Positions 13,213 to 46,629 of a stretch of DNA of 49,650 nt are shown one piece after another. Numbering within the stretch: position 1 is the first letter of the stretch; the number at the start of each line of letters is the position of its first letter. A model generated the notes under the pieces. It had not been told where the DNA came from. It did no database searches and worked only from the letters and a program-made list of their open reading frames with translations. A program made the position numbers and the translations under genes. The DNA comes from Algibacter pacificus (GTDB lineage Bacteria > Bacteroidota > Bacteroidia > Flavobacteriales > Flavobacteriaceae): positions 1-49,650 of the forward strand of contig NZ_VOGY01000016.1 in the NCBI RefSeq assembly GCF_008033385.1, in the 5' to 3' direction.

Positions 13213-13215
13213 AAT

Positions 13216-13440: not shown

Positions 13441-13651
13441 TCCGTTACACGGTATAAAGTTAGAACAAATAATTAACGATTTGGTCGAACATTATGGTTG
13501 GGAATATATGGGACATACCATAAATATTAAATGTTTTAATGATAATCCTTCGGTAAAATCTAGTTTGAAATTTTTACGAAGAATGCCCTGGGCACGCACG
13601 AAAGTGGAGAACATGTATTTAAATATGCTGAAGAATAAAAATAGAAACTAA
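13421..13651 (+). CDS. VF530 family (DUF2132) DNA-binding protein
   Basis: The 76-residue protein has the family pattern [22 protein letters not shown], then [30 protein letters not shown]. The structure of the Vibrio family member VF530 shows a small alpha-helical DNA-binding fold. It overlaps the preceding gene by 20 bp. Role unknown; probably a nucleoid-type protein. Confidence 0.85.
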
Positions 13652-13680
13652 GCCATTCTAAAACATTACTGAACTCTTAG

Positions 13681-19472: not shown

Positions 19473-19547
19473 CGGGGTGTAGCGTAGCCCGGTTATCGCG
19501 CCGCGTTTGGGACGCGGAGGTCGCAGGTTCGAATCCTGCCACCCCGA
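19473..19547 (+). tRNA. tRNA-Pro (anticodon UGG)
   Basis: A complete cloverleaf can be drawn: acceptor CGGGGTG (19473-19479) with CACCCCG (19540-19546), discriminator A19547, anticodon stem CCGCG/CGCGG around TT-TGG-GA, and T-arm GCAGG-TTCGAAT-CCTGC. CCA is not encoded. The 3' end is the left attachment site of the integrative element, and the gene stays whole after integration. Confidence 0.97.
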
Positions 19548-19548
19548 C
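19533..19548 (+). repeat. attL core repeat
   Basis: This 16-bp sequence spans the 3' end of tRNA-Pro and one extra base, and is repeated exactly at 49195-49210. Integration at a tRNA 3' end with regeneration of the gene is typical of tyrosine recombinases. Confidence 0.88.
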
Positions 19549-29812: not shown

Positions 29813-30091
29813 ATGGCAGCAACAATTATCACAACAGAAGATCTTCGAGAGTTCAAATTAGAATTATTAGAAGACATCAAAGCAATAATCAATCATCAAT
29901 CAGGTTTCGCACCTAAAAAGTGGCTCAAGTCACCAGAAGTTCGAGACCTCTTAAGTATCTCACCAGGAACATTACAAAATCTTCGTATCAATGGCACATT
30001 ACCATACACAAAAGTCGGTGGAGTCATCTATTACGACTACGAAGAAATCCTCAAAGTAATGGAAGAAAACCGAATCCATAACAAATTTTAG
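29813..30091 (+). CDS. Excisionase-like helix-turn-helix protein
   Basis: This is a 92-residue protein with an acidic N-terminal helix and a MerR/Xis-like winged HTH: WLKSPEVRDLLSISPGTLQNLRINGTLPYTKVGGVIYYDYEEI. Proteins of this form in Bacteroides elements serve as excision factors or control factors. Start ATG at 29813. It lies just before the replication-type gene, separated by a REP-like repeat. Confidence 0.82.
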   Translation: MAATIITTEDLREFKLELLEDIKAIINHQSGFAPKKWLKSPEVRDLLSISPGTLQNLRINGTLPYTKVGGVIYYDYEEILKVMEENRIHNKF

Positions 30092-30188: not shown

Positions 30189-30235
30189 AGCGGAGAGGCC
30201 AGCTGGTGCATTGGCGTTTAAACTATAGAACTAAT

Positions 30236-30772
30236 ATGCAAGACGTTAATTATATTAAACATCTAAATTCAATCTTTGTCCAATTCTCAAAAGATAATCG
30301 ATTAAATCCAACCCACATAAGCTTATACATAGCATTATTTCAGTTGTGGAATTTAAATCGATTTTTAGAAGAGTTTTATATAAACCGCGATGAGGTTATG
30401 CAATTATCTAAAATTGGTTCTAAATCTACCTATCACAGATGCATCAAGGAATTAAACCATTGGAAATATATCTTGTATTTCCCATCTCACAATCCTTATC
30501 GCGGAAGCAAAATTAAGATGTTCAAATTCGGGACAAGCTCTGGACAAGTAGTGGGACACAGCTCTACTCAAATCGAGACAAGCACTGGACAAGCACTGGT
30601 ACCTATATATAAACATATACAAACTATAAAAAACAAAAACATTCATAAACAGGAAAATTTAAAAAATTCAGATTTAGAAGATTTTGAAAACAAGGAAAAA
30701 CCTAATCGAGCTGTTCCAAATACAGACAACCTAAAGACTACTAAAAACAAAAACTACAATGAACCACTTTAA
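30236..30772 (+). CDS. Winged-helix protein of mobile elements, replication-type
   Basis: The 178-residue protein begins MQDVNYIKHLNSIFVQFSKD and has a winged-HTH region (PTHISLYIALFQLWNLNRF, INRDEVMQLSKIGSKSTYHRCIKELNHWKYI) like primosome/DnaD- or Rep-type DNA-binding domains, followed by a polar, disordered tail. It is always found next to a DnaC-like ATPase in related flavobacterial elements as far as I recall. I infer it recruits the loader to an origin. ATG at 30236 chosen. Confidence 0.65.
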   Translation: MQDVNYIKHLNSIFVQFSKDNRLNPTHISLYIALFQLWNLNRFLEEFYINRDEVMQLSKIGSKSTYHRCIKELNHWKYILYFPSHNPYRGSKIKMFKFGTSSGQVVGHSSTQIETSTGQALVPIYKHIQTIKNKNIHKQENLKNSDLEDFENKEKPNRAVPNTDNLKTTKNKNYNEPL

Positions 30773-30848: not shown

Positions 30849-31511
30849 ATGAACACAAATCAACCTCACATAATCATTGAGAAAGGCGTTCAATACAAAC
30901 TTGGCGAACTCAAAGACAATCATATCCATTATGATTTCAAAAGTATTCTCATTTACCTCAATGCAAAAGGAAAGTTGTTATTTGGCAAAAACTTCAAGAT
31001 TTATGAAGAAGATAAGGTAGTGCTTTACAAATTATGCATTTATTTTATTCGCGATTTTGAAGCTTGCGAAAAACTAAATATAGATCCAAATAAAGGTATT
31101 CTATTGTCTGGTCCTGTAGGTTGTGGTAAAACCAGTTTAATGAAACTGTTAAGGCATATTGTATCACACCATAAACCCTATGAAGTTATTCCTGCAAGAA
31201 ATATCACGTTTGCATTTAACAATATTGGATATAAAACCATTCAAGAATATGGAAACAGTAATTTCTATTGTTTTGATGATTTAGGAGTAGAAACAACCGG
31301 TAGACATTTTGGAAAGGACTGCAATGTTATGGGCGAAATCCTCTTATCGCGTTACGATCTATTCCTTCAGCGTAAAATAAGAACCCACGCAACCACAAAC
31401 CTTAATGCTCAAGAGTTAGAAGAACGATATGGTAATCGTGTACGTTCCAGAATGAGGCAACTCTTTAATTTGATTGCTTTTGATAAGGAAAGTAAGGATA
31501 AGAGAATATAA
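30849..31511 (+). CDS. DnaC/IstB-like AAA+ ATPase
   Basis: The 220-residue protein has Walker A GPVGCGKTS (88-96), Walker B FYCFDDLGVE, sensor-type TTNLNA and the C-terminal RYGNRVRSRMRQLFN, the arrangement of helicase loaders. It probably loads the host replicative helicase on the element with the preceding DNA-binding protein. It is the last gene of the mobility/replication module and is followed by a terminator. Confidence 0.82.
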   Translation: MNTNQPHIIIEKGVQYKLGELKDNHIHYDFKSILIYLNAKGKLLFGKNFKIYEEDKVVLYKLCIYFIRDFEACEKLNIDPNKGILLSGPVGCGKTSLMKLLRHIVSHHKPYEVIPARNITFAFNNIGYKTIQEYGNSNFYCFDDLGVETTGRHFGKDCNVMGEILLSRYDLFLQRKIRTHATTNLNAQELEERYGNRVRSRMRQLFNLIAFDKESKDKRI

Positions 31512-31615
31512 CTTTGAAACAAATTTTAACAAAATGAGGTAAACCGTAATAAAACAAATACATAATTTGTATATTTAGTGTGTAAAAAAATCCCTAAGCA
31601 CTCAAAGTTTTTAAT

Positions 31616-31646
31616 AGCTAATGATATTTCATTGGCTTTTTTATTT
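31616..31646 (+). terminator. Terminator before the defence operon
   Basis: AGCTAATGA (31616-31624) pairs with TCATTGGCT (31629-31637) through a TATT loop, with one G-U pair, and a T-rich stretch follows. It lies 25-55 bp upstream of gajA, and separates the defence operon from the replication module or attenuates transcription into it. Confidence 0.7.
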
Positions 31647-31670
31647 ACTCAAAAAATAAATTAATAATAA

Positions 31671-33593
31671 ATGTATCTATCTAAATTATATATAAAAAAT
31701 TTTAGAGGAATTAAAGAAATGACCCTTAGCTTCAATCGTAGTATCAACATTTTGATTGGGGAAAACGGAAGTAACAAATCAGCGGTGATAGATGCCATAA
31801 GATTGCTTTACAATATGGGAGAACCCATTCGAGATATTTCAGTAAGTTTTGCAGACTTTCACGAAAGTGTGGCGTACGATGAAGATGAGAAAATTACTAT
31901 AACAAGAACTGATAAGATTACTATAGTTTTTCAGTTTAAGGGGCTTTCCGCTTCTCAAAAAGGTGCTTTATACGAGTATATGGTCATCGACCCCGATGGC
32001 GAAAACGAATATGCGCAGGTAACGCTAACCTATGAAAATAAAGGTGGTAAATACCCAATTTCATCATATTACACAGGCAATGTTGAAGGTCAAAAAGCCG
32101 ATTATAATACATTCGCAATTTTTCAACACTACTATTTAAGTGGCTTAAGAGACAGTACCCGAGATTTATTAACCAGCAGAGGTAATGTATTGGGACGTGT
32201 CATTAAAAGACGGGTAGAAAAAAACGAAACAGAGGATGTTATAGAAGGTATTATGCGGAATGCTAATGATGAGCTTTTGGCACAATCAGAAGTTTCAGAG
32301 ACACGTGATGGTGTCAACGATAATCTTACAGGGATATACCAACGTTTTAAAGATAATCAAATTGGCCTTCAAATAGAGCAATCCAAAACTGAATACATTG
32401 TTAACGCTATAAAACCGTTTTTACCTCACGATAGGGTTAGTTTAGCTGGGGATGGATTTTCACTCTGGCAAAATAGCTTAGGGCAAAATAATCTCATATA
32501 TATAGCAACAGTTCTCGGTGACATCAAGGATCAAATCAAAGAAAACAAAGTTCCTCATTTTGCTCTACTGATTGAAGAACCTGAAGCTCACTTGCATCCA
32601 CAACTTCAATTAAGCTTATATAGTTTTTTAAGAGATTCAAGCACTTCAAAAAATAGCCAATTATTTATCACGACACATTCGCCTACTCTTACATCGAAAG
32701 TACCACTCAAAAATTTGATTTTATTGGATGGTAAAGCGTTTCAATTAAGTAAACAGTTTAAGCAAAGGGTTTCTGAAGAAATTGTTGAAGATACTGTAAA
32801 AAACAATAAACTGACCAGCTCGAACTTTAGATTTAGAAGAAAACAACTTGAAAGATATATTGACGTAACAAAATCTCAACTACTATTTGCAAAAGCAGTT
32901 CTTTTTGTTGAAGGTATTTCTGAAGAACTTTTAATTACAGCCTTTGCAGCAGTCAAAAAATATCGTTTAGAGGATTACAGAATTGAATTAGTGAATATTG
33001 GTGGGACGAGTTTTTACCCATTCATCCATTTGTTTAACTCAAATCAACCTAGCAGGTCTATCAACAAGCCTGTTTCAATTTTAACTGACAATGACAGGTT
33101 TCCTGAGTCTAAGAAAAAAGAATTTTCTTTTAAAAAATTGATTGAGGATGATTATGCTAAACTTGATGAATTGGACGCTTCAATTCAGGTAGCGGAAGTA
33201 TCATCAAGGATACCCAACATTACTTCGGCTATTAATGGTAAAGACACCATTAAAGTTTTTCCGGCAGAAAAAACTCTTGAATACGAATTGGCTCTTGCAA
33301 ATATTCCGAAGACAAAAGGAGGTATCGAAGCCAACTTTTTATTCAAATACATTGCTAAAAATAGGTCTGAAAAAGCAGAAGCTATACTTACCTATGTGGA
33401 TTCAGTTATAGATGGTGAACTTTCTGAAGAGCAGCAAAGAAAGACTGCTATATTGTTGTGGAAGTCGTTTCCTTCAAAAGGTACATTTTCACAAAACTTT
33501 TCTCTTTACATTCTCAAAAACTTAAGGCGAGCTCGGAAAGAATTTGTAATCCCAAAATACATACGTAAAAGTTTAAAGCACTTAAAAGGATAA
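31671..33593 (+). CDS. gajA: Gabija GajA-like OLD-family nuclease
   Basis: The 640-residue protein has an N-terminal ABC-type ATPase and a C-terminal Toprim nuclease. Motifs: Walker A region GENGSNKS (30-37; the usual sixth Gly is N35), Walker B IEEPEAHLHPQL near 300, H-loop-like TTHSP, then Toprim Glu in LFVEGIS (E414) and the DND acidic pair (D473, D475). GajA nicks DNA when nucleotide levels fall in phage infection and works with GajB. The typical GajA is about 580 residues. It begins an operon of eight genes; its stop is 2 bp before gajB. Confidence 0.88.
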   Translation: MYLSKLYIKNFRGIKEMTLSFNRSINILIGENGSNKSAVIDAIRLLYNMGEPIRDISVSFADFHESVAYDEDEKITITRTDKITIVFQFKGLSASQKGALYEYMVIDPDGENEYAQVTLTYENKGGKYPISSYYTGNVEGQKADYNTFAIFQHYYLSGLRDSTRDLLTSRGNVLGRVIKRRVEKNETEDVIEGIMRNANDELLAQSEVSETRDGVNDNLTGIYQRFKDNQIGLQIEQSKTEYIVNAIKPFLPHDRVSLAGDGFSLWQNSLGQNNLIYIATVLGDIKDQIKENKVPHFALLIEEPEAHLHPQLQLSLYSFLRDSSTSKNSQLFITTHSPTLTSKVPLKNLILLDGKAFQLSKQFKQRVSEEIVEDTVKNNKLTSSNFRFRRKQLERYIDVTKSQLLFAKAVLFVEGISEELLITAFAAVKKYRLEDYRIELVNIGGTSFYPFIHLFNSNQPSRSINKPVSILTDNDRFPESKKKEFSFKKLIEDDYAKLDELDASIQVAEVSSRIPNITSAINGKDTIKVFPAEKTLEYELALANIPKTKGGIEANFLFKYIAKNRSEKAEAILTYVDSVIDGELSEEQQRKTAILLWKSFPSKGTFSQNFSLYILKNLRRARKEFVIPKYIRKSLKHLKG

Positions 33594-33595
33594 GT

Positions 33596-35419
33596 ATGAA
33601 ACTGGATATTACAGATGAATTACAAGCGTATTTTGATGCCAAAGGTAAAGTAGTTTTAAATGCTTGTCCAGGCAGTGGAAAAACTACGGCAATTGCCCAA
33701 AAAGTCATTCACCTTGAAGATGCATATAAAAGTACTTACGGTAATCACTCAGGTATTGCCTGTATCTCATTTACCAATGCAGCAAAAGATGAACTTAACC
33801 ATACATACAATTTACTTTCGGGTAATACTCTTCAATATCCAAATTTGGTTAGCACAATTGATAGCTTTATCAACACCTTCATTACATTGCCCTTTTATTA
33901 CCTTTTAGAAAGGAATTTTGCTAGACCGCAAATTTTAGAAAACAACGCCCGTTTAGATACATTTTGGAAAACCAAGTACAAGAATAGAAGTGGTAAGTTG
34001 GTTGATGGTCTTAAAAACCCTATGAACTCTTTTAAAGCCAAAACTGGCAGAAGCATATACTATCAATATTTACCATCCTCTATAAGATTAGAACCAGATG
34101 GTAGCTATACCGTAAATGGAAATGCACCTTCAGAAGATAAAGTAGATTTAGATGTCTTTGAAAAATATTGTAAATATATCAAAGGATGGCAGTTTGAAAA
34201 AGGTTTAATTACTACTAACGACTCAGCGTTTATTGCACTTAGGCTTCTTAGAAATAACCAAAAAATAAGCAAATGGCTTGGACAAAGGTTTCCTCACATA
34301 ATCGTCGATGAAGCACAAGACAATTCACTTATGCAACATCGAATTTTCGAAGAACTCAATAATCAAGGATTAGTGAATATCGAATTCATTGGCGACCCTT
34401 ATCAAAGTCTTTATGAGTTTAGAGATGCCAACCCACAGCTATTCTTGGACAAGTATGAAGGAGATGATTATGTTAGCCTGGATTTATCAAATAACAGAAG
34501 GTCCCCACAACGTATTATAGACTGTTTTTCACTACTAAGGTCACAAGATAAACGCACAATCAAAACAGCCTGTGAAACCGATTTAAAAGAGCCGATACTT
34601 ATTTACAGGTACAAAGCCGATGGCAGAAGTGATATCATAAGTCATTTTGAAGAATATTGTATCAGTAAGGGATTTAATAAAAATAAGGTGGTGGTGCGAG
34701 GTAATAGTATAAGGAACAAAATGCTTGGTCGGGATGCACAACAAAGACCTTGGCACAACCCCTTGGTTTATGACCTAATCACTGCAAAGATTGAATATGA
34801 TGACAAAAATTTAAAGGATGCCATAAACATAGCAAGGAACATTGTTATTCGATTAGAAAATAGAGGACTCTCTTTTGTAGAATTTGGTCATTTGCGAGCT
34901 GAACTTAAAACTGATTACCAACTCAATGCGCGAGTAATATGGTTTGTTGAAGGATTGCCAGAACTCTCTAATACGGTTGAAGAATGGTCAAAACTATGTC
35001 CCGCATATATAAAGAAAGCTTTAAACCTTGACTATGATTTAGATTTCGGTTTAAAAAAGACCTCAAAATATTTTGCTAAGGCTACACGCACCAACCCAGT
35101 ATCAATGCACTTCAATCGAGTGGATATTGATAAAACCAGTTCACTTACAACAATTCATCAAGTTAAGGGAAAAACATTGGATGCAATTTTGATTTTTTTT
35201 GACGAAAACAACCACGCAAGTAATATTAATTTCAGGGATTTAGAGCCTGATGAGGATGGCTTTATTAAAGAAAAGAAACGTATAATTTATGTAGCAATGT
35301 CAAGACCTAAACACCTTTTAGCAATCGCATTTCCTGAGAAAATCACAGAAGCTCAGATAAAAGAAAAGTTAGGGAGCGATATATTGGTAGTGGTAGTTTC
35401 GGATATTGAAAAAAAGTGA
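33596..35419 (+). CDS. gajB: Gabija GajB-like UvrD/Rep helicase
   Basis: The 607-residue superfamily 1A helicase has Walker A ACPGSGKT (23-30), SFTNAAKDEL (motif Ia), IIVDEAQD (motif II, 236-242), the NNRRS motif, HQVKGKTLDAIL (motif V) and YVAMSRPK (motif VI). GajB binds GajA and activates the complex when it meets damaged or unwinding DNA. It is longer than the canonical GajB of about 490 residues. The gap to jetA is 5 bp, and no promoter is evident. Confidence 0.9.
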   Translation: MKLDITDELQAYFDAKGKVVLNACPGSGKTTAIAQKVIHLEDAYKSTYGNHSGIACISFTNAAKDELNHTYNLLSGNTLQYPNLVSTIDSFINTFITLPFYYLLERNFARPQILENNARLDTFWKTKYKNRSGKLVDGLKNPMNSFKAKTGRSIYYQYLPSSIRLEPDGSYTVNGNAPSEDKVDLDVFEKYCKYIKGWQFEKGLITTNDSAFIALRLLRNNQKISKWLGQRFPHIIVDEAQDNSLMQHRIFEELNNQGLVNIEFIGDPYQSLYEFRDANPQLFLDKYEGDDYVSLDLSNNRRSPQRIIDCFSLLRSQDKRTIKTACETDLKEPILIYRYKADGRSDIISHFEEYCISKGFNKNKVVVRGNSIRNKMLGRDAQQRPWHNPLVYDLITAKIEYDDKNLKDAINIARNIVIRLENRGLSFVEFGHLRAELKTDYQLNARVIWFVEGLPELSNTVEEWSKLCPAYIKKALNLDYDLDFGLKKTSKYFAKATRTNPVSMHFNRVDIDKTSSLTTIHQVKGKTLDAILIFFDENNHASNINFRDLEPDEDGFIKEKKRIIYVAMSRPKHLLAIAFPEKITEAQIKEKLGSDILVVVVSDIEKK

Positions 35420-35424
35420 TAGTT

Positions 35425-36744
35425 ATGAATAGCTTTAACCTATATAGAGAAGCAAAAGATCAGTATGAAAAATTAATCCCCGATAAAATCGACGGTTTAA
35501 TTCTTCTGTCTCTATACGCAAAGTATAAGGATAAAGACTTTACTGAAGAGAATATTATATCAACGATTAATAAAGTATTTAAAGATCAAGGTAATGACAG
35601 CTCTAGAACAGAATACAATAGAAATAATTCTATAATTTTAAGATTCCAGGAATCCTTCCTTTGGAGAAATGCTTCAAAGAAAACTTATCAGTTTAAAAAA
35701 TACGGTCTGGAGCTTTGTCAGAATATTGAAAAACGTTTAATCGAAAAATACAATCCTGCTAAAATTAAACGATTTTTTGATGAATTGCATAAAAGTCTCA
35801 CTGAAAACATTGAGCAAAACAAAGATTTTAACGAATGGATTGAAGATCATTTTGAGATTAGACTTCCTGAACTTACTTCACAAATAGAAATTTTAGACCA
35901 GCAGGTTAACGAATCGGTAAAAGATTTTAAAACAGGAATAAATTCTAGGAATCAAGACATACTTGATGTCCTTAAAGGTATTGAAATACGTCTTGAAGTT
36001 ATTAAAGAACAAGCATCCGAGTTAAGAAATGCATTTCAAATCTCATATGATATAGATGACCTTTTACTAGGATTACTAGAAGAAAACAAGGGGCAAAACT
36101 ATATCGCAAATATTCACAGAGTTCAAACTTTTCACGATAATTCTAGAAGTCAATTAGAGCAAGTAAGTAAAAGAATTGAAAAAATTAAACCAAGAATTAG
36201 AGAGTTCATTTATGATTTCAATAAAAAGAACTTCGATAGGAAAACAAACAAGTTTATTGACTATTTACTACAACAATCTGTAGTAATTAGAGAAGGGGGA
36301 GCAAAAAAAATTAAACTTCCAGATAACCTGCCAGAATTATTGGTTAAATCTACAGAACATAATCTCAAATTTAATGTTATACCAATAAGAGAAATAAGTC
36401 CAAAACTACCTATTAAAGTAACAGAAAGAAAGATTAATGTAAACAAAAGAAGAGAGCTATTAGAAAAGACACTAAAATGGAAACAGGACAAAGAAAGAAT
36501 ACGTTACTGGACCAATTTGGCATTTAAAGAATTGGAAGAAAAAGGTACTTTTAACTTCACACCTTTTTTCTTTAAAATTCTAGAAGAAGATCAGCTCACA
36601 ATTGCTGTTAAAACAGCTCATAGTATTATAAGAAAGAACATTATAAGTAGAACTAAATATAATGTGGCTATCAAAAAAGAACCAATATACGGCGCAACAA
36701 AAAAAGGAATATCCTTATGGCAAATGACAATACGGAAAGAATAG
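35425..36744 (+). CDS. jetA: Wadjet JetA-like (MukF/MksF kleisin-type) subunit
   Basis: The 439-residue protein has an N-terminal winged-helix region (about 1-85; LILLSLYAKYKDKDFTEEN), a long coiled coil (about 90-240) and a C-terminal region. This is the kleisin layout of MukF and JetA. It should link JetB to JetC in a condensin-like loop extruder that finds circular plasmids. ATG at 35425 is preferred over GTG at 35416. The closest family is weakly conserved, so the assignment depends on the neighbours. Confidence 0.75.
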   Translation: MNSFNLYREAKDQYEKLIPDKIDGLILLSLYAKYKDKDFTEENIISTINKVFKDQGNDSSRTEYNRNNSIILRFQESFLWRNASKKTYQFKKYGLELCQNIEKRLIEKYNPAKIKRFFDELHKSLTENIEQNKDFNEWIEDHFEIRLPELTSQIEILDQQVNESVKDFKTGINSRNQDILDVLKGIEIRLEVIKEQASELRNAFQISYDIDDLLLGLLEENKGQNYIANIHRVQTFHDNSRSQLEQVSKRIEKIKPRIREFIYDFNKKNFDRKTNKFIDYLLQQSVVIREGGAKKIKLPDNLPELLVKSTEHNLKFNVIPIREISPKLPIKVTERKINVNKRRELLEKTLKWKQDKERIRYWTNLAFKELEEKGTFNFTPFFFKILEEDQLTIAVKTAHSIIRKNIISRTKYNVAIKKEPIYGATKKGISLWQMTIRKE

Positions 36745-37397
36745 AATCATATAGTTTTTTGTATAATAAGAAAGCAAAAAACACCTTTGCAAAACTTGAT
36801 TATGCTCTTCGAAGCGGTATCCATATTCAAAGAGAGTACCCTTTGAATGCAAACTTATATCGATTTTTAAGTGAATCAGAAAACTATGAGTCGCTTAAAG
36901 ATTACTATAAGAACTTCTTCAACTTAAATCTCATAAAAGAAGGTAATGATTTCGATAATTACTATTATTTAAATTTCAATGAAGATGGTAAAGGAAATGT
37001 ACCTTCTGATAATCGCGATTACTTAAAAAGCGAATACATTATTATCGGGATGCTATTCTTAAAGATGTATAAGCTAGATGGAAATATTGAACTAGACAGT
37101 GTGTCTGAATTTACCACACTATTATATGAGGAATATGAAGAACAGAAAAATGCATTGAGGAAACTTATTAATGATAATTCTTCTGATAAAAGTACAGATT
37201 TGGGTGATCAAAGATTCGAAACCGTTATAATGAAATCTTTTGAAAAGTTTGGAGATTTAGGGTGGTTAATATGGGAAAGGGAAGATGAAAAAGATAAATT
37301 TAAAATAATGCCATCTTTTGAACGCTTGCGAATTTACTATCAACCACAGATTGAAACCATTGATGATTTAATAAAGGAAGTGAAAGATGCTGAATAA
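36717..37397 (+). CDS. jetB: Wadjet JetB-like (MukE/MksE) subunit
   Basis: The 226-residue protein has paired winged-helix features and the C-terminal FGDLGWLIWERE followed by FKIMPSFERLRIYYQ, which resembles MksE/MukE. It overlaps jetA by 28 bp and jetC by 11 bp, so translation is coupled. It binds the kleisin subunit in the condensin complex. Confidence 0.78.
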   Translation: MANDNTERIESYSFLYNKKAKNTFAKLDYALRSGIHIQREYPLNANLYRFLSESENYESLKDYYKNFFNLNLIKEGNDFDNYYYLNFNEDGKGNVPSDNRDYLKSEYIIIGMLFLKMYKLDGNIELDSVSEFTTLLYEEYEEQKNALRKLINDNSSDKSTDLGDQRFETVIMKSFEKFGDLGWLIWEREDEKDKFKIMPSFERLRIYYQPQIETIDDLIKEVKDAE

Positions 37398-40300
37398 TTA
37401 TCCTCGTATATATAGTTTGTCAACAATAGGTATTAAACAACATTTTAATGCCGATTATCTTTTCCATCCATACAGAACAGATTTTAGTGGCGAAAGTGGT
37501 AGTGGAAAGAGTATGATAGCCGATATGATACAATTAGTTCTTGTTGGATCAAGTGAGTTTAAATCTGCGACAGAAAGCAATAAGATTAGAGATATCAAAG
37601 GAATGTTAATTACCCCAAAAGGTCATTCAACATCTAGAGGTTATATTTTTTTAAATATTGAAGTCAATCCAAAAAAATACATTGTTATTGGTGCTTATAT
37701 TGAGGGAACGAGTAATGCTGCCGAAATGTTTATTATTCAAAACGGTTATGATTGGGAGAACCCTACTGCATTAAGCAAACCGATTTTTTATAAGGATTTA
37801 TTACTGGACAATAAAGTTGATACATTAAATAGCCTTTGTGAAAAGATTGAATTTGTTAGAATGAAATCTTTCAGGAGAAAGCAATACCATCAAATTCTTT
37901 ATGATAATTCAATCCTATCTTTAAATTTGACTAAAAATGAAACCCTCAAAACATATGCAAATATCTTGAGGTCATTTTCAAGGGGAAAAGGTTTTAAAAC
38001 CGAATCTGAAGATTTAAAAAAATTCCTCTTTGGAGATGATGAAAAAAATGCCATAATTGAAAAATATAATGAAGAAGTCGAAAATATAAGCAATGATTTT
38101 CACGAGCATAAAAGATATACTGAAGAGATAGAGCTCATCAATAATAAGCAGGATTTATTAAAGACGGCATTAAAAAAACAAAAGGAATATAAATCTGTAT
38201 ACACAGAATATTTAATAAAAAAATATAGTTATTGGAATAGCTTCAAAAAGAAAACTACAGAGTTGAAGTTCAAAATAAATGAGCAATTAAATGTAAGAAA
38301 ACGTGAATTGCAATTTGTCGAAAATGAACTTTTGGAAATAAAAATAGAGGAGCTTAAAGAGTTGTCAGATATTAAAATTAAAGTTGCGGAGTTAACTAAA
38401 GTTGATAATTCTAAACACGATATTGAAAGTAAGTTTATAAATATTAGTAACGCCAAAAGACAAGTTGATATTGTAGAGAAATGGCTTACGTCTAACAATA
38501 ACAATATTGAGAAAGTAAATACCTGGTTTAAACAACAATATGAAGAAACTAATAATAGAACAGCTTTACAAGAATTTACAAAACATCTCTCGACTCATAA
38601 TGTATTAGATGTATTTAAAGTATCCAACTGGTTAATCGATTATAAGAAAGAAAGTAAAGCATATTCAAAAAAAATTGAAGCTTTAAAGAAAGAAGTAAAC
38701 GAACTTGAATCTTTATCACGATTTTCAGATTTAAATAATCCAGAGTCTTTGGTAAATTGGGCTATAGATAACCTAAAGTTTCCTCTATCGCATAATCTTG
38801 AAAGTATTTTAATTTATTATCAAAAGTTTGGTAAGATTAAACCTTCAGAAGAAAATGCGAATAGATATGTCCCATTTCCAGAGCAACTTTTTCACAATAT
38901 AGCCTCAAATATTAAGGATAAAACTGAAAATGGATTTTGGCTCAATCTAGATGGTGTTTATGAATTTATCTCATATTCAGAGCATCAGGTTCTCGACGTT
39001 GATAAACCAGAGGATATTGTAAAATCCTTATCAAAATTGAAAGAAAGTGTTGAAGAAAAACTGTCTAAACTTATCGCTAAAAAACAAAGTGAAGAGCACC
39101 TTAAAGATACACTGTTTGAATATAGCAATCTTGAAAAGCATATAGAGCTTTTTAAAAGAAAAGACCAGTTACTTAATTTCAATATAGATGATAGTATAAA
39201 AGATATAACAGAAGATACTTTTAAAGTATATATAAAGTCTTATGAAGACAAAACAAGTATCCTAAAACAATACAATTCTTTAAAGAAAAGATATGACGAA
39301 AATATAAATAGAAAGACCCTAATACAAAATCATCAAAAAAGAATTAAAGAGTTACGGTCAGACCTTTTTGAAAATAACGATTTGATTAATAATAAATTAT
39401 TAAATGAAAGGATAGAGATAGAGAAACAACATTTGAAGATTCAGGAAGAAAACTTAAAAGAAAAGAACTTTGATGAAAAGTTGTTCAAAGAAACGTATGC
39501 CAAAGACAATAACAATAAATCTAAACTTTCTTTATCAAGCTTAAAACATCAATTTTTAAATTCTATAAAAGATTTAGAAAGGGAGATACAACAAAAAGAA
39601 GAACAATTTACTTTGGCAAAAGACCAAATAATGGAAACCCAAAATTTGAACGAACAGCTTTTTAAATCAAAGATTAGGTTTGATGAAAATATTGAAGAAA
39701 CACTAAACCCTGATGATGGTGGTGACAATTCCTTTCAGGAAAAAGCAAAAAAAGTACAACGTGCTTATTTTGAATATTTAAAAATCATAACCAAAGACCT
39801 TCCTTATGATGAAACAGCATCAATAGGACAATTAGCAAATTACCTTCTACCTACTGTTTTTCCAACAATAAATGTTGATGAAGATTTAATTGAAAATGAC
39901 ATAGTTGAAAGATTAAATAAATTGACTCTTGATATTCAGGAAATAGGTTCTAGAAAAGTTGAGATTTTAGGTAGCATATTTAATGATGTATATAAAGTTT
40001 ATACTGGATATTTAACAAAAATTAATGAAATTAACAGCTACCTTAAAAAAGGAAATAGAGGTATAACGGGTGGGAATAAGGCATCATTATCTTCAAAAAA
40101 ATCAATTCATTACCCAGAAAACTGGCTTACTACTTTTAGAAAACAGTTGCATAATCAACTAAGTTATACAGGTTTATTTAGTGAACTTCGAGAAGAAATT
40201 GACATTAATGAAATGATGATTAAAGCATTTCAAAAGCTTGGTGGAAGTTCTAAAGTTGAACCAGAGGAATTAATGAACCCAAAATCCTATTTTGACTTGA

Positions 40301-40689
40301 CATTTGAATTAAAACTCGAAAACGAAGAGGTTAATTCTGGTAGTAATGGGCAGACCTATGCAGCCAATGCTTTATTATGTTTGGCTAGACTATCACTAAT
40401 TGAAGAAGGAGATAAAAAAGGATTAAAAATTATGCCTATAGACGAAGCGGAAGGTTTAGGAAGTAATTATGATATGTTGCACGAACTTGCTAAAAAAGAA
40501 AGATATCAAATTATAACTATGGCAATTGAGACCGCAGGAGAAATCACAGATAACGGTCAATACATCTATGTTATGAATATGAATAACTTGGCTGATGTTG
40601 ATAGCTACGTACCACCTTTAGGAATTTTTTCTGAAGATGTGACTGAAGACATCGACCAATACATACAATCTCTATCTAGTAATGAATAA
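37387..40689 (+). CDS. jetC: Wadjet JetC-like SMC ATPase (MukB/MksB type)
   Basis: The 1100-residue protein has an N-terminal Walker A GESGSGKS (35-42), a long coiled coil interrupted by a hinge-like region, and a C-terminal ABC half with signature SGSNGQ (about 983-988) and Walker B PIDEAEG (about 1014-1020). It is the motor of the loop-extruding complex that recognises small circular DNA. The size agrees with JetC (about 1100). A repeated Glu-Lys-rich composition suits the coiled coil. Confidence 0.9.
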   Translation: MLNNYPRIYSLSTIGIKQHFNADYLFHPYRTDFSGESGSGKSMIADMIQLVLVGSSEFKSATESNKIRDIKGMLITPKGHSTSRGYIFLNIEVNPKKYIVIGAYIEGTSNAAEMFIIQNGYDWENPTALSKPIFYKDLLLDNKVDTLNSLCEKIEFVRMKSFRRKQYHQILYDNSILSLNLTKNETLKTYANILRSFSRGKGFKTESEDLKKFLFGDDEKNAIIEKYNEEVENISNDFHEHKRYTEEIELINNKQDLLKTALKKQKEYKSVYTEYLIKKYSYWNSFKKKTTELKFKINEQLNVRKRELQFVENELLEIKIEELKELSDIKIKVAELTKVDNSKHDIESKFINISNAKRQVDIVEKWLTSNNNNIEKVNTWFKQQYEETNNRTALQEFTKHLSTHNVLDVFKVSNWLIDYKKESKAYSKKIEALKKEVNELESLSRFSDLNNPESLVNWAIDNLKFPLSHNLESILIYYQKFGKIKPSEENANRYVPFPEQLFHNIASNIKDKTENGFWLNLDGVYEFISYSEHQVLDVDKPEDIVKSLSKLKESVEEKLSKLIAKKQSEEHLKDTLFEYSNLEKHIELFKRKDQLLNFNIDDSIKDITEDTFKVYIKSYEDKTSILKQYNSLKKRYDENINRKTLIQNHQKRIKELRSDLFENNDLINNKLLNERIEIEKQHLKIQEENLKEKNFDEKLFKETYAKDNNNKSKLSLSSLKHQFLNSIKDLEREIQQKEEQFTLAKDQIMETQNLNEQLFKSKIRFDENIEETLNPDDGGDNSFQEKAKKVQRAYFEYLKIITKDLPYDETASIGQLANYLLPTVFPTINVDEDLIENDIVERLNKLTLDIQEIGSRKVEILGSIFNDVYKVYTGYLTKINEINSYLKKGNRGITGGNKASLSSKKSIHYPENWLTTFRKQLHNQLSYTGLFSELREEIDINEMMIKAFQKLGGSSKVEPEELMNPKSYFDLTFELKLENEEVNSGSNGQTYAANALLCLARLSLIEEGDKKGLKIMPIDEAEGLGSNYDMLHELAKKERYQIITMAIETAGEITDNGQYIYVMNMNNLADVDSYVPPLGIFSEDVTEDIDQYIQSLSSNE

Positions 40690-41623
40690 AAATATCACTT
40701 GGAAAGAATTAAAAGCACTAGATGATATCTATAGATTTAAAAAGACTAGAGCTAGTATTCAAAAACATCCTTATATCAATTATTTAATAAATGAAAGGAG
40801 AATTTTGGATTTAAAACCAGATAACATAAAAGTCATTGTTACTACTGATGAGTATGAAGAATTTTATGAACAGGAATTTAAAATCCAATATGAAGAAGCT
40901 AAAAAGTTCTTAGTTAAAAACGGAATTGAGCCATCAGCTAAAAAGAGTTTTACATTAGAAGATGTTAAAACATTGATGTTGATTAATGAAAATAAAGAAG
41001 AATTAAAAAATAACCCAACCAATATCGAAGATTTTTCAAATGAATTTTTTGAAATATCTAAATATTTAAAAGAGAAGAAAAGCGTTAGAGAGGCAGTCTT
41101 TTCTATTTTGGGTATTGATCAGTTCCCCCTAGATAAAAAAGAAAATCAATGGAGGTTAGTCGTTGATTATAAAAATCCAAAAGCAATTGTTTTATGTGAA
41201 AACAAATCATTTTTAAAACAACCTTGGATTGCTAGAAATACAGAAGTTAAAATGTGGTATGTTGGAGGGAATAACATAAAAATATTAGATGACATTGACG
41301 AAGTTGAACTATCTAAACCTATATATTATTCCTGTGATTGGGATTTAGCTGGTTTACAGATATATTCTAGAGTTAAGGGAAAGTTAAAAGATAGAAATAG
41401 TGATATTATGCTTCTATATCCAAACATACCACATAAAAGAATTAGTTCTTATATAAATTATCACAATAGTCATTGGGAATTAACGAAAACATTATCTGGT
41501 TTAAAACCGGAATTTTTTTCCAAGAAAGAACTATTACTAATAACAGACTTAATTCAGAGTGAAGAGTGGATTGAAGAAGAATCAACGGATCTGGAATTAA
41601 TGATAAAAGGGACCCTAAATTAA
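40682..41623 (+). CDS. jetD: Wadjet JetD-like Toprim nuclease
   Basis: The 313-residue protein has a Toprim-like C-terminal half with E173 (VLCENKSF) and the DWD pair D219/D221 in CDWDLAGLQIYSRV, as in DUF2220 nucleases. JetD cuts the DNA when the SMC complex has extruded a closed circle. The N-terminal half (about 130 residues) is shorter than in JetD of type I systems (about 380 residues in total), so a type II or III is likely. Overlaps jetC by 8 bp. Confidence 0.85.
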   Translation: MNKNITWKELKALDDIYRFKKTRASIQKHPYINYLINERRILDLKPDNIKVIVTTDEYEEFYEQEFKIQYEEAKKFLVKNGIEPSAKKSFTLEDVKTLMLINENKEELKNNPTNIEDFSNEFFEISKYLKEKKSVREAVFSILGIDQFPLDKKENQWRLVVDYKNPKAIVLCENKSFLKQPWIARNTEVKMWYVGGNNIKILDDIDEVELSKPIYYSCDWDLAGLQIYSRVKGKLKDRNSDIMLLYPNIPHKRISSYINYHNSHWELTKTLSGLKPEFFSKKELLLITDLIQSEEWIEEESTDLELMIKGTLN

Positions 41624-41634
41624 ATTATAGAAGT

Positions 41635-43848
41635 ATGAGCAACTTTAGATTATTATCAATTATACCTTTTAAAGGATGTGATGAAAAATTTAGTAAAAAT
41701 TTGATAATTGGTAAACCCTATAAATTTACAGAAGAGTACTCTATAGAGCTTAATAAAGATAATAGTAAAATTGAAAAAGTTATTAGTGTCAATAAAATTG
41801 ATGGTAATAACATTTATAAGCTCAAAAATGGTATCAATATAGAGATATCTGCAGTTGTTGGTTTAAATGGTTCAGGGAAAAGTGCTCTAATAGAGCTTCT
41901 GTATTACTTAATTTATGCTTTAAGTATCTATAATAAAAAACAAAAACTATTAGATGAACATTCTGAAGTATTGGATCCTCAAATAGATAAAGCTCAAAGT
42001 GATGCAAGAAAACTCGAAAACCAAAAAAATAAGAATTTAAGAACAATAGAATTGTTAAAGTTTATAAACGACAATAAGTTAATATTTGATAAAAAAGATT
42101 TACAAGGTATAACAAATGGACAAACTCTTATTAAGAGTTTATTTAGGAAAAGATTAGAGTTTTTATTGGGTCAACAGCAGGATGATTTAAAAATTGAACG
42201 TTTAATAAAAAATAATCTAGCTGCTAGTATAGTATATATAGATTCTGATATTGTTTACTCAGTTAGTTTTTCTAAGAGAGGTAAGTTAGAGTTCTACGAA
42301 TATAGTCTAGAAGGTAAACCGATAAGGAAGGATGATTTCTTTTTTGATCCCTTTTTCTACTCAATATGTTTGAATTATTCTCATCACTCATTAAACTCTA
42401 AAGTAATGGGTAATTGGATCAATAGTCTATTTCATAAAAATGATGGTTATACAACACCGGTAGTTATTAATCCAATGAGAGATGAAGGTAATTTTAATAT
42501 TAATAGAGAATTACATTTATCAAAAGAAAGGATAATGTCTAATTTATCCTTTGATGTTGTTCTCAACAAAAAAGTGTCTTTACTAGAAAAGTATGAGCTT
42601 AAAAAGTTCTTATATTTTACAAAGAAAGATTTTGAATTAATTAAAAGAGCAGGTTTTGAAGATAAAGATGAAAGATTAAAATATACTAATACAAGATACT
42701 TAGATATTGATGATTTTGATAGTTTAAAATCTGTAAAGTTGGTTCGATCTATATTAGGGAACAATTATTTAAGGAAATACACAAACTATCAAGACTACGC
42801 TCTAGGCTATTTAGAGAAAAAGATAGATAGAATAAAAGATAACTATTCTCATTTATTTAGAGATAAAAACTTAAATCATAACAATAATAAGTTTATGGCT
42901 TTTTTAAGAAATGATAGAAGTCATATTACAAGAAAGTTAAGACAAACTATAAATTTTATAAAATATACAAACGAACCTAATTCCATATGGAATACCCGTG
43001 GTCATCATTCATACAGAGAGTTGACCCCAGATGATTTAAAAATTTGGATTAATGAGTGTAATTTAGATGAAAAAAAGCTTACCCCTTCTTTATTAATGGA
43101 TTATGCGTTACCTGGCTTTTTCAATATTGACTTTGAAGTATCTGTAAATAAAGGGAAAAACTTAAAATTAAGTGAGCTAAGTTCGGGAGAACAACAAATG
43201 ATTTTTAATATCAATACAATAACCTATCATCTATATAATTTACATTCAGTTCATTTTTCTGAAGAAAACACTGATGTAACAAGAATAGCTTATAAAAATG
43301 TAGCAGTTATTTTAGATGAAGTAGAGATCTATTATCATCCCGATATGCAAAGGGAACTTACAAGCAGTATTTTAAATGCTTTAGAAAATATAAAAAGAAA
43401 AGGACAAAAAGGTGTTGAATCTATTCATCTAATTTATTTAACTCATTCACCTTTTATTTTATCCGATATAATTTCGTCGAATATTTTGAGGTTAGATAAT
43501 GGCAAAATAAAAACTATAGAGGAACAGACTTTTGGTGCTAATATTCACGATTTATTAGCAAATGATTTTTTCTTGAAAAATGGATTTATGGGTGAGGTTG
43601 CAAAGGAGAAAATTAATGAAGTTGTTGAAATTATGAAAGATATTCAGGATGGGGAATATCTAAAAGATACTATAGATAACTTAAGAGTAAAATGTAAAAC
43701 CATAATTAACATTGTTGGTGAACCAATTTTATATATGAGTTTAATGGATTTATATACTGAAACATTTAAGGATTCTAAAATAGAGTTTATAGATGAACAA
43801 ATAAAAAAACTAGAACAACTTAGGAATGATAGCAATTCATCAAAATAA
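41635..43848 (+). CDS. Septu-like ABC-type ATPase (PtuA-like)
   Basis: The 737-residue protein has Walker A GLNGSGKS (76-83), an internal coiled region with a Lys-rich charge pattern, signature LSSGEQ (about 515-520), Walker B VILDEVE (about 560) and H-loop LTHSPF (about 601). This is an SMC/Rad50-like AAA_21 type. With the HNH nuclease that overlaps it downstream by 23 bp it matches the two-gene plan of Septu (PtuA-PtuB). Septu PtuA is usually near 500 residues, so the large insert (about 110-500) is unusual. Only 11 bp separate it from jetD. Confidence 0.7.
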   Translation: MSNFRLLSIIPFKGCDEKFSKNLIIGKPYKFTEEYSIELNKDNSKIEKVISVNKIDGNNIYKLKNGINIEISAVVGLNGSGKSALIELLYYLIYALSIYNKKQKLLDEHSEVLDPQIDKAQSDARKLENQKNKNLRTIELLKFINDNKLIFDKKDLQGITNGQTLIKSLFRKRLEFLLGQQQDDLKIERLIKNNLAASIVYIDSDIVYSVSFSKRGKLEFYEYSLEGKPIRKDDFFFDPFFYSICLNYSHHSLNSKVMGNWINSLFHKNDGYTTPVVINPMRDEGNFNINRELHLSKERIMSNLSFDVVLNKKVSLLEKYELKKFLYFTKKDFELIKRAGFEDKDERLKYTNTRYLDIDDFDSLKSVKLVRSILGNNYLRKYTNYQDYALGYLEKKIDRIKDNYSHLFRDKNLNHNNNKFMAFLRNDRSHITRKLRQTINFIKYTNEPNSIWNTRGHHSYRELTPDDLKIWINECNLDEKKLTPSLLMDYALPGFFNIDFEVSVNKGKNLKLSELSSGEQQMIFNINTITYHLYNLHSVHFSEENTDVTRIAYKNVAVILDEVEIYYHPDMQRELTSSILNALENIKRKGQKGVESIHLIYLTHSPFILSDIISSNILRLDNGKIKTIEEQTFGANIHDLLANDFFLKNGFMGEVAKEKINEVVEIMKDIQDGEYLKDTIDNLRVKCKTIINIVGEPILYMSLMDLYTETFKDSKIEFIDEQIKKLEQLRNDSNSSK

Positions 43849-44794
43849 AGTAATTAATGCTCAATCTTTATTCCAACCTGAAATAGAGAGCCAAAGAAAA
43901 AAGGCCTTAACCAAGCTAAAAAAAATTAATAAAAATCAATTTAATACGAATGAAAAGGATTATTTAAGAGAAGTTATAAGTTTGTTTGAAGATAATTCTT
44001 CAATAAAAATTATAGAATGTAATCCTAGTTATTTATCAAGTTTAGTATCTTCAATTGGGATAATTCCACCTAATTCAAGATTCTATAAAAATGGTAAGAC
44101 TAAAAAAAAATTAAAACAATTTATCCTTGAGGCACTTAACTACTCATACTTGAGAAGTTCTTTTTACCCTAAATACTTTAGAGAAATAGGTGTAAAATCA
44201 TGTGTGTATTGTAATTCTCAATTGTCAATTACTGCAGTTAAATCAAGAGATGTCTATTCGGCAAAATTTGATGTAGATCACTATTATTCAAAAGATGAAT
44301 ATCCTTTTTTAAGTATTTCACTTTTTAACTTATACCCGGCTTGCTCATCTTGTAACAGAGCAAAAAGCAATAATAAAATTGAGTTTGAATTATATACATC
44401 AAATCATAAGAATACAACAAAATCAAATTATAATTTTAAACTAAGCCCATATTCTAAATCTAAGTATTTAACCACTAGAGATTCTATGGAAATTGATTTT
44501 TATTTTACAGAACCCATTTATCTTAATCCTAGTACTAAGAAATTTAATGATGTTTTTCATATTGAAAGTATTTATGAGACTCAGAAAGATTTAATAGAAG
44601 AATTAATTATTAAAAGCCAAATTTATAATAAATCATACTTAAAAGCTTTGAAGTATAATTTTAGCAAGCTCTCATTACATCCAGAATTATTCAAAAGGAC
44701 ATTAGTTGGAAATTATACCCAAGATAAAGATATTCACAAAAGACCTATGAGCAAAATTGTTATGGATATAGCTAAGGATCTAGATTTAATATAA
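43826..44794 (+). CDS. HNH endonuclease (PtuB-like)
   Basis: The 322-residue protein has an HNH zinc-finger nuclease core: C126-x-x-C129, then FDVDHYY with H152, N168 in LFNLYPACSSCNRAKSN, Cys pair C173/C176 and N177. The zinc knuckle and the HNH motif are complete. It is larger than canonical PtuB and has an extra N-terminal domain (about 1-120) and a long C-terminal part. It should cut nucleic acid when released or guided by the upstream ATPase. It is the last gene of the operon. Confidence 0.75.
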   Translation: MIAIHQNKVINAQSLFQPEIESQRKKALTKLKKINKNQFNTNEKDYLREVISLFEDNSSIKIIECNPSYLSSLVSSIGIIPPNSRFYKNGKTKKKLKQFILEALNYSYLRSSFYPKYFREIGVKSCVYCNSQLSITAVKSRDVYSAKFDVDHYYSKDEYPFLSISLFNLYPACSSCNRAKSNNKIEFELYTSNHKNTTKSNYNFKLSPYSKSKYLTTRDSMEIDFYFTEPIYLNPSTKKFNDVFHIESIYETQKDLIEELIIKSQIYNKSYLKALKYNFSKLSLHPELFKRTLVGNYTQDKDIHKRPMSKIVMDIAKDLDLI

Positions 44795-45365
44795 TTCCCT
44801 ACAAACCAAAATTCAGTTTATTGCTGTCGCAACAATCCTCTGTCTTTTGGTTTGTTCCGCTAGCCAACGCTCATGCAGTTTTTAGCTGCCAACCCTCACA
44901 CAGCACATTGCTTGTTTTGTTAGATTGTATATTTTAATAAGAAGTACAACAAAAAATCAAAGAGCTGTTCCCAACACTCACGCCAAAAACTACCCAAAGC
45001 TATGTTTACATAACGGGTAGTTATAGTAGCATTCATTCACTTTCTGTACTATAACGCCATTATGTAAAATATCCGCTCACCAGCCGCCAATTACGAACTA
45101 ACATTGAAGTTTAGAACACACAATTTTTCCATCTTTTCCCCACCACCCATTTCAACGGTGTAAGTTCCAGCAATTTTTAAAAGTTTCCATGTGTCTGCGG
45201 TAGGATGCATTACATTCACTCAATCCCTTATCAGGGTATCACTCATTACATTTACTCACCTCAACACCGCGCATAAAAAAAGAGCATTTCTTAAAAAATG
45301 CCCTTTATTTATCTTTTCCTTACGCCACTTTTAAAAATCACTTCCGCTTACGACACTTTGCCCCG
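44795..45365. other. Gene-free region after the defence operon
   Basis: No coding region is evident in this 571-bp stretch. It holds CATTACATTCACTCA (45208-45222) and CATTACATTTACTCA (45244-45258), an ACTATAACGCC / GGTAGTTATAGT-like inverted pair (about 45010-45058), and a terminator at 45276-45308. It looks like debris between inserted modules. Confidence 0.5.
45276..45308 (-). terminator. Terminator of the hipBST operon
   Basis: AAAG-A-GCATTT (to 45289) pairs with AAATGC-C-CTTT (45296-45306) with one mismatch, flanked by an A-run on the left that gives a T-run on the minus strand. It is 58 bp after the HipT stop. Confidence 0.7.
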
Positions 45366-46304
45366 TTAAGTGAGTCGTTCATATCTTGTTTCTAAAATAC
45401 CTTTGTAAGCAGTTTTCATATCATCCGATAAAAAGGAATTATCAATCCATTTTATAGCTTTATATTTATTTTTGAGCATACGCTTAAAAACACCTTGTAT
45501 TTGTCTATCAGTTAATCCAAGTCCTTGACCTAAATGCTCAAAATGGGCTTTTTTAAGTTTTCGCTTTTTCCCTTCAAGGGTGAGTGCCAATTCTTCAGTA
45601 TCTTCAGGAAGAACAATAGACACATTTAACAAATCATATGCAGGAGCTAATATCCAACCTGAAGGACTTTCTATCATGGAAAAGTTTTTCAAATGCATAT
45701 CATTGTTTCCCGTGAGAAAACTAAAGATAGCCAATTCAAAATAGAAGATTTTATCCAACAAAGTATTATTAGAATAACTGTCCAAGGCTTTACCAACTTT
45801 TTCCATGGAGCTTTTATACTTATCAAAAGCTTCCGTTATTTGAAACATATCCAACATATGGATTTTCTTTCCTTTTTCAGTCCTATCGATACGTTTGGTA
45901 ACATAAGACAATTCACCCGAAGACAATTTTATCAAACTAGAGGGAACAACCCGTATGCCAAAAGCTTCCGCAATCCGCATAGTCAAATGTTCGTTCTCTG
46001 GCATTTCCGGAAATTGATGGGATGGTGGTTTAAATATATACTGGCCACCAAGTGCACCAACAACTGTTAACCGTGTGTCGGCTTGTTCTTGCGTTTCTTT
46101 TATCAAGGACATTGATAATTTAGGTTGCACACCTGGTACAGCAACACTGCGCTCAACAACACTCTTTGCCAATTCTGCCATTTGGTCTATAGTGTATGGG
46201 ATTATTGGAGGTGTTGTAGTGCCAAAGAATTCCATAGAACATTTTTCATGAAAATCAGTTTCATTTTCAAGTGGCTCATAACAATATAAACATCTATTCT
46301 TCAT
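45366..46304 (-). CDS. hipT: HipT-like serine/threonine kinase toxin
   Basis: The 312-residue HipA-type kinase lacks its own N-subdomain 1, which is a separate gene upstream. Motifs: an N-terminal zinc-ribbon-like C5-x2-C8-x10-H19-x2-C22, the nucleotide loop AVPGVQPKLSMSL (about 55-67), catalytic TGNNDMHLKNFSM and metal-binding APAYDLLN. HipT in E. coli O127 phosphorylates TrpS. The start ATG 46304 overlaps hipS by 11 bp. No HipA-like Ser150 loop can be confirmed from this sequence alone. Confidence 0.88.
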   Translation of the reverse strand: MKNRCLYCYEPLENETDFHEKCSMEFFGTTTPPIIPYTIDQMAELAKSVVERSVAVPGVQPKLSMSLIKETQEQADTRLTVVGALGGQYIFKPPSHQFPEMPENEHLTMRIAEAFGIRVVPSSLIKLSSGELSYVTKRIDRTEKGKKIHMLDMFQITEAFDKYKSSMEKVGKALDSYSNNTLLDKIFYFELAIFSFLTGNNDMHLKNFSMIESPSGWILAPAYDLLNVSIVLPEDTEELALTLEGKKRKLKKAHFEHLGQGLGLTDRQIQGVFKRMLKNKYKAIKWIDNSFLSDDMKTAYKGILETRYERLT

Positions 46305-46629
46305 GGTTATCAGTTTTAGGTACAACGCTTACTGCCCCAATACAATTCTGGCAACAAGCCAATAATAATCCCATACGATCATTTCGGTTTATTTTCCAGT
46401 TTTTTGATGCTATATCCAATAACCAACCTTCAGGGATCAAACCTTCAAAAAAAGGAAATAGTTTATTATCAGTATAAGCTTCTTTCCTAACAGGCATGGT
46501 AAACGTTATAAATTCAAAAGGATGGGTTTCTATATAAGTTGCATCGTACTGAAAAACATAATCACCTTCGCCAGTTTCGGTAATAGTTCCTGCCAAATAA
46601 TCTTTATAATATACGTTACCTTGTCTCAT
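46294..46629 (-). CDS. hipS: HipS-like HipA N-subdomain protein
   Basis: The 111-residue protein corresponds to the HipA N-terminal (couple_hipA) subdomain: GNVYYKDYLAGTITETGEGDYVFQYD, then FEGLIPEGWLLDIASKNW and a C-terminal NDRMGLLLACCQNCIGAV. In HipBST systems HipS is the antitoxin that neutralises HipT. It overlaps hipB by 14 bp and hipT by 11 bp, so the three genes form one tight operon. Confidence 0.88.
   Translation of the reverse strand: MRQGNVYYKDYLAGTITETGEGDYVFQYDATYIETHPFEFITFTMPVRKEAYTDNKLFPFFEGLIPEGWLLDIASKNWKINRNDRMGLLLACCQNCIGAVSVVPKTDNHEE

Follow-up and report, generated by a model that had tools for sequence, protein, structure and literature searches.

Defense islands are usually described as neighboring systems, each with its own control. 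In Algibacter pacificus, eight plus-strand open reading frames (ORFs), comprising Gabija genes (gajAB), a Wadjet-like set (jetABCD) and an ATPase-HNH pair (M62) in that order, stand nearly in contact, and this raises the question of whether three immune systems here form one operon. The run lies at positions 31671–44794 of contig NZ_VOGY01000016.1, whose entire length of 49,650 nucleotides we analyzed and call the window. Its junctions of +2, +5, −28, −11, −8, +11 and −23 bp, when recomputed, were identical to those of an original prediction that had proposed a continuous operon from the sequence alone. We observed that the Jet genes form a block with borders of its own, that the partners of this block are exchanged, that the modules differ in base composition, and that a leader stands at the front of the cargo wherever it was found. 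With a probability of roughly two-thirds, we read the run as a mosaic defense operon that occupies the cargo slot of a Flavobacteriia mobile element, probably of conjugative type, its modules being autonomous under one control region; separate promoters come next in likelihood and cooperation between the systems last.

Gene borders were taken from a simple ORF caller, and some start codons are uncertain. Families were assigned with PADLOC-DB 2.0.0, Pfam and NCBIfam. A JetD alignment scanned against 84,980 species genomes gave 127 relatives, of which 80 loci were kept and underlie the counts of Jet loci; these and the comparison loci are denoted L with a number. Judged by names, all 80 are from Bacteroidota, as were the seeds themselves.

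Tight same-strand spacing alone is ordinary: in the flanks of the related loci, 45% of 636 adjacent ORF pairs are equally close. Base composition changes in steps at the module borders, with a guanine-cytosine content of 34–35% in gajAB, 27–30% in the Jet genes and 25–26% in the M62 pair; thiC and GSDH, two genes outside the run, have 39–40%.

Borders of the Jet block and exchange of its partners

The Jet core, about 6 kb long, behaves as a block that begins at the jetA start codon and ends near the jetD stop; close copies are found next to unrelated neighbors. When the window was compared with L008, L010, L014, L017 and L018, DNA identity remained at background (36–53% per 100 bp) up to position 35424, rose to 80–85% in the 100 bp that begin with the jetA start codon, and fell back to background past jetD; in L020, similarity to the window continues through the M62 pair. 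Over 6171 bp, reaching from the jetA start codon to some 30 bp short of the jetD stop, L009 and L011 share 93.0% identity; for L080 and L082 the figure is 91.2% over 6045 bp. Neither pair gave another match longer than 100 bp at an E-value of 1e-10. One comparison is a counter-example to clean borders: in L048 and L051, with Jet blocks 84% identical, the shared DNA begins 45 bp ahead of the called jetA start, and stretches 3' of jetD are shared too. The block itself stays together. JetA was called in 72 of the 80 loci, and we read the eight loci without a call as contig edges or damaged copies.

A gene upstream of jetA is present in 71 loci, on the same strand in 62 of them, and within 60 bp on that strand, our definition of tight, in 24. 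We counted as partners only genes of at least 300 amino acids (aa), which excluded the small ORFs of L079 (60 aa) and L087 (75 aa) and left 22 of 71 loci with a tight 5' partner and 49 without one. All 22 partners belong to runs with a defense-family match, and these are of nine kinds: Gabija (L008, L017, L020, L029, L030, L081, L082), Lamassu (L009, L032 and, as a fragment, L028), DRT UG10 (L011), the reverse transcriptase UG6 with a nitrilase (L051), Avs4 (L035, L037), HerA with a nuclease-like gene (L043, L052), M62 (L048, L050, L067), partial Ppl matches (L018, L061) and Hachiman (L080). The kinds were assigned by PADLOC, except in L029, L030, L032, L050 and L052, which were assigned by similarity only; in L043, the immediate neighbor has no PADLOC match and the adjoining HerA has one. 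L086, with Tiamat at +68 bp, lies just beyond the 60-bp limit, yet is labeled with its partner on the tree described below.

How often have partners been exchanged? On a JetC tree of 69 rows (a quick tree with long-branch warnings, in which the state 'none' includes loci with more distant partners), the partner state changes at least 16 times, and 11 times among the partner-labeled rows. Closely related Jet cores follow Hachiman in L080, two different Gabijas in L081 and L082, and Tiamat in L086; another closely related pair follows Lamassu in L009 and DRT in L011. The reverse is also seen: L029 and L082 have GajA proteins that are 86% and GajB proteins that are 78% identical, but their JetC proteins are only 26–27% identical, and Ppl is 68% identical between L018 and L066, with JetC at 30%. 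Tight genes of at least 300 aa flank Jet on both sides in five loci (L008, L011, L020, L050, L061). As a whole, the three-system order recurs in only one of the 80 loci, L020 of Tenacibaculum agarivorans, where GajB is of another PADLOC subfamily and gajA is cut by the contig end, and we therefore rejected conservation of the entire operon. An order unique to this genome, with modules independent elsewhere, had been named as the outcome that would speak against a fused operon; the answer is divided, since the order does recur once, with a different Gabija, and the modules are otherwise freely recombined.

We wondered whether such combinations could be functional hybrids, in which the Jet condensin-nuclease and its 5' partner would cooperate through shared substrates or licensing and the operon would be kept for that reason. 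The re-pairing in both directions just described, with JetC at about 26–30%, would fit this idea, as would the occurrence of all 22 tight partners in defense-gene runs and the second occurrence of the three-system order. The variety of partners, nine kinds, speaks against it, as do the 49 of 71 Jet cores that have no tight 5' partner of at least 300 aa. Partners also do without Jet: four of four Ppl relatives (33–36% identity) have no Jet gene within 1.5 kb, and none of 20 Gabija comparison loci (from 24 GajA places other than the window's own) holds a gene of this Jet branch. In that set, the GajA closest to the window's (L089, 63% identical) has no Jet gene within the 20 kb read, and the gene after GajA has a tight follower of at least 300 aa in one locus of 20 (L099). 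A search of 395 order genomes for GajB of the L029 type, made without a positive control, found none at 1e-60.

Nor is tight stacking clearly commoner in this branch than in ordinary Wadjet, at 22 of 71 loci versus 2 of 14 readable ones (p = 0.33); against the pooled comparison ends (4 of 34), p was 0.05. Given these two values, we do not claim enrichment. The ordinary set consisted of 20 places chosen for contig room and variety; jetA was unreadable in six (L109, L112, L113, L118, L121, L122) and was assigned in the other 14 by length and position, not by profile. Its two tight cases follow a type III restriction-modification pair (L126) and a 1431-aa protein with partial PADLOC matches only (L120). 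Because partners differ completely between closely related Jet cores, the L089 GajA stands without Jet, and the modules differ in base composition, we consider cooperation improbable.

The leader ahead of the cargo

Between p220, a presumed backbone gene, and gajA lies a leader (Table 1). Two features recur ahead of the first cargo gene, a TATATTTA box that does not vary and a hairpin (AGCYRATG, five bases, TCATTGGCT, T run). We built a model from six leaders and searched 82 sources with it; at an E-value of 1e-5 or better it matched ten places in nine sources: the six seeds, L024 (whose leader is nearly the same as that of L013), L066, L008 and a second copy in L083. Twelve whole genomes yielded one further leader, in the genome of L014. 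In five loci the leader precedes the first gene of a partner, gajA in the window, L008, L014 and L017 and ppl in L066, and in five loci without a partner it precedes jetA (L010, L013, L024, L065, L083). Among the leaders found, none lies between a partner and jetA. In L014 and L066 the gene upstream of jetA is more than 60 bp away. The second copy in L083 precedes a Drt3a-Drt3b reverse-transcriptase pair directly after the Jet core (11059–14971), so that defense cargo other than Jet can also have the leader in front. Of the DNA between p220 and gajA, 146 bp can be aligned with the DNA between p220 and jetA in L083, at 89% identity; the JetC of L083 is only about 30% identical to the window's. 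In 46 comparison loci there was no leader match below an E-value of 0.1 and one at 0.2. Weak matches in L143–L145, which lie among genes read as housekeeping-like, were dropped, as was a minus-strand match in L010 (E-value 0.11).

Since the leader stands before the partner's first gene or before a partner-free jetA and never between the two, the comparison supports one shared control region. The original prediction had paired co-regulation with possible cooperation; the first part is supported by this comparison, and the second finds little to sustain it. On our best reading, the systems are autonomous and plugged into one expression slot. Transcription would start in the conserved leader just after p220, perhaps at the box, and pass an intrinsic terminator, the hairpin, which would probably attenuate it, before continuing as a single transcript over all three modules to the end of the M62 pair. 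The modules would then work independently, with phage DNA as the target of Gabija, small circular DNA as that of the Wadjet-like condensin-nuclease, and another class of invader as that of the ATPase-HNH pair.

A similar picture could arise if the three systems were transcribed separately, with promoters in the 3' ends of gajB and jetD, and had come together in a defense island by chance, their short spacing reflecting a compact genome. Such an arrangement is consistent with the 45% of neighboring ORF pairs that are equally tight and with the many Jet cores elsewhere that lie at least 100 bp from the upstream gene. It would also accommodate the absence of a leader from most Jet loci and a terminator-like site inside jetD (41495–41511). 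Shuffled sequence has terminator-like sites at about the same frequency (7.6 expected, standard deviation 2.9, against 10 found). With this site present, and with promoters possible within coding sequence, the original statement that the run leaves no room for internal promoters or terminators was too strong. The overlap or near-contact at every junction in the window argues the other way, as does a leader that fronts either a partner-free jetA or a partner's first gene, with no second copy before jetA. We regard separate transcription as unlikely.

Several further observations, together with the site in jetD, weigh against our best reading. Only a minority of Jet loci yielded a leader (nine of 82 sources, plus the genome of L014), and six of these leaders had served to build the model. 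Searches of the whole L018, L061 and L020 genomes, all with partner-Jet operons, gave no leader. The hairpin folds in all five leaders tried, with modest z-scores of −1.5 to −3.5, and shows no covariation, its pair changes being one-sided only. A scan with a consensus for Bacteroidetes-type promoters was uninformative when the regions upstream of fused and free jetA were compared (p = 0.71). Finally, neither TraG nor the amidase of related Jet islands was found in the window, and because the window is the whole contig, no complete element is visible.

Exact matches to the leader hairpin were absent from viral contigs, and Rfam returned nothing over 31000–45400 up to an E-value of 0.1. In each of the ten aligned leaders, the left arm of the hairpin contains an ATG that begins a short frame, M-x-x-H-W-L-F (established by script for nine and by eye for L065); constant hairpin geometry could yield this pattern without translation. 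A bolder idea, to which we give little credence, casts the Jet core as a general partner module for the downstream position: a machine that extrudes loops, cuts circles and would work with any sensor-nuclease module placed between leader and jetA. One attenuator, the hairpin overlapping this frame, would then release the whole set.

The modules and their surroundings

The Jet set appears condensin-like, as judged from the MksE match of JetB, the MukB profile match of JetC (1qhl, 3.5e-6) and the predicted folds of JetA and JetD (Table 1). JetA is predicted to have a kleisin fold: its model (predicted local distance difference test score, pLDDT, 77; predicted template modeling score 0.35) is nearest to MukF (7.7e-8) and Wadjet-II JetA (6.6e-6), with low template modeling (TM) scores, and sequence searches of the PDB returned unrelated helical proteins only and no Wadjet chain. 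JetC is of the SMC type, with a Walker A motif and a presumed signature motif, as in Wadjet. The JetD model (pLDDT 92.8) lies near the topoisomerase VI A subunit and P. aeruginosa JetD (9.2e-3; best match 1.4e-3), again with low TM-scores, and a sequence search of the PDB gave no Wadjet chain and a single chance-level match. Residues E173, D219 and D221 of JetD, presumably the expected acidic residues of a TOPRIM domain, are invariant across 49 aligned sequences.

Table 1. Positions of the run, its leader and the presumed backbone genes in the window.
Feature	Position	Strand	Description
HTH_17 protein	29813–30091	+	presumed mobile-element backbone; Pfam; 79% identical in L139
188-aa gene	30206–30772	+	presumed backbone; no Pfam match; 68% identical in L139
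p220	30849–31511	+	ATPase-like, 220 aa, presumed backbone; marks 5' edge of cargo slot; 72% identical in L139
leader	31535–31646	+	promoter-like TATATTTA box 31570–31577; terminator-like hairpin 31616–31637 with T run; putative attenuator
gajA	31671–33593	+	OLD-like ATPase with TOPRIM domain, 640 aa; PADLOC and Pfam; motifs GENGSNKS, LTDND
gajB	33596–35419	+	UvrD-like helicase, 607 aa; PADLOC and Pfam; motifs GSGKT, DEAQ
jetA	35425–36744	+	kleisin-like, 439 aa; start codon is 5' border of Jet block; fold search
jetB	36717–37397	+	MksE/MukE-like, 226 aa; Pfam MksE 1.4e-18
jetC	37387–40689	+	MukB/SMC-like ATPase, 1100 aa; MukB profile match; motifs GESGSGKS, GSNGQ
jetD	40682–41623	+	TOPRIM-type nuclease subunit, 313 aa; 3' end is other border of Jet block
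PDC-M62A-like ATPase	41635–43848	+	737 aa; PADLOC; 78% identical to L020 homologue 3' of jetD
PDC-M62B-like HNH nuclease	43826–44794	+	322 aa; PADLOC, Pfam HNH; 80% identical in L020

Among 395 genomes of a phylum sample, this JetC is present in three, the window's own genome included, and ordinary Wadjet (JetD_C above cut-off) in 52. JetC was not found in plasmids. JetD was found in one viral contig, L088 of IMG/VR, a Jet core with JetC in two ORFs and three tyrosine integrase matches. Partial matches to the JetD C terminus recur in several genomes, and L110 carries a spare 3' end of an ordinary jetD kilobases from the full gene (6691–6813 and 15391–15513, 88% over 123 bp); JetD ends might thus be exchangeable.

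The genes upstream of the cargo point to a mobile element, which may be of the conjugative kind. L139, just upstream of L014, has the HTH_17, 188-aa and p220 genes in the order of the window, followed by leader and gajA. Ten of the 80 loci have a p220 homologue near the Jet island (phmmer gives 5.2e-100 for that of L061), and TraG and amidase homologues, both named by Pfam in L013, lie in 12 Jet loci each. In plasmids p220 had weak matches in four records, covering at most 76% of the query, and in viral contigs no match was confirmed. L059, L062, L069 and L070 have a Shedu-like gene after Jet and TraG on the opposite strand, where p220 also lies in L059, L069 and L070. In L007 the genes directly before the Jet core were read as coding for a reverse transcriptase and a nitrilase-like protein, and a helicase-like gene precedes these.

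Farther upstream in the window, a tRNA-Pro (19473–19548) followed by a tyrosine integrase (19780–21018) is a possible integration site. A protein of the RteC family (28732–29601), a kind of regulator from Bacteroides conjugative transposons, is encoded upstream of the slot. Just past the defense operon, on the minus strand, lie HipA-type genes, HipA_C (45366–46325) and a separate Couple_hipA N-terminal part (46294–46629).

Relation to known systems

The constituent systems are of known kinds, and modular hotspots are already known as well. Among the matches listed in a search of titles and abstract openings, which lay outside preprints and most subscription papers, we found no Jet hybrid operons and, for a Wadjet-like branch, no exchange of whole systems at gene borders within one run that has a shared leader. 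What is exchanged here is an entire system, with cuts at or close to its start and stop codons and with an apparent mobile-element leader in front of the joined run. If transcription confirms this, it would show concretely how mobile elements take up, swap and switch several immune systems together. The natural matched pairs, with the same Jet core and different partners, can be used to test whether stacked systems cooperate.

The anti-phage and anti-plasmid activities proposed above would be those of the named families, and for Gabija and M62 they are family background. GajA and GajB match the PADLOC models PDLC00083 (2.8e-284, full length) and PDLC00138 (3.3e-101), and the ATPase-TOPRIM protein adjoins the UvrD helicase at +2 bp, as in Gabija; the difference is that Gabija is here joined to a Jet operon at +5 bp.

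The last pair resembles Septu (PtuAB) in layout, an ATPase followed by an HNH nuclease. Its proteins are best matched by the models of the candidate family PDC-M62A/B (8.5e-43 and 2.9e-49), far ahead of PtuA and PtuB (1.2e-13 and 2.1e-8), and we rejected it as Septu. Of the three systems originally named, Gabija and a Jet set, the latter divergent and Wadjet-like, were recovered, and the Septu-like pair became PDC-M62. The pair lies downstream of Jet in the window and L020, and upstream of it in L048, L050 and L067, where the HNH gene precedes the ATPase gene.

The Jet genes follow the order of Wadjet and MksBEFG, namely kleisin, KITE, SMC ATPase and TOPRIM nuclease. They differ from Wadjet (background from PMC10586767) in sequence: JetA has no match in PADLOC, Pfam or NCBIfam, neither JetA nor JetB matches PADLOC at an E-value of 0.001, and JetC and JetD match weakly (JetC1, 1.2e-7; JetD3, 5.7e-4). 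The set does not conform to the PADLOC family models of Wadjet types I–III. Conversely, profiles of this Jet branch match one gene in 20 ordinary loci (JetD of L125, 1.3e-5). The comparison exposes a Wadjet-like branch that PADLOC-DB hardly recognizes.

The closest parallel to the locus as a whole is with the modular defense hotspots in Pseudomonas genomic islands, as described in PMC12629846. Both cluster defense modules and exchange them in fixed island slots. The difference from the hotspots as presented there is that exchange here takes place within a single run of genes, at or close to the start and stop codons, and behind the leader where one was found.

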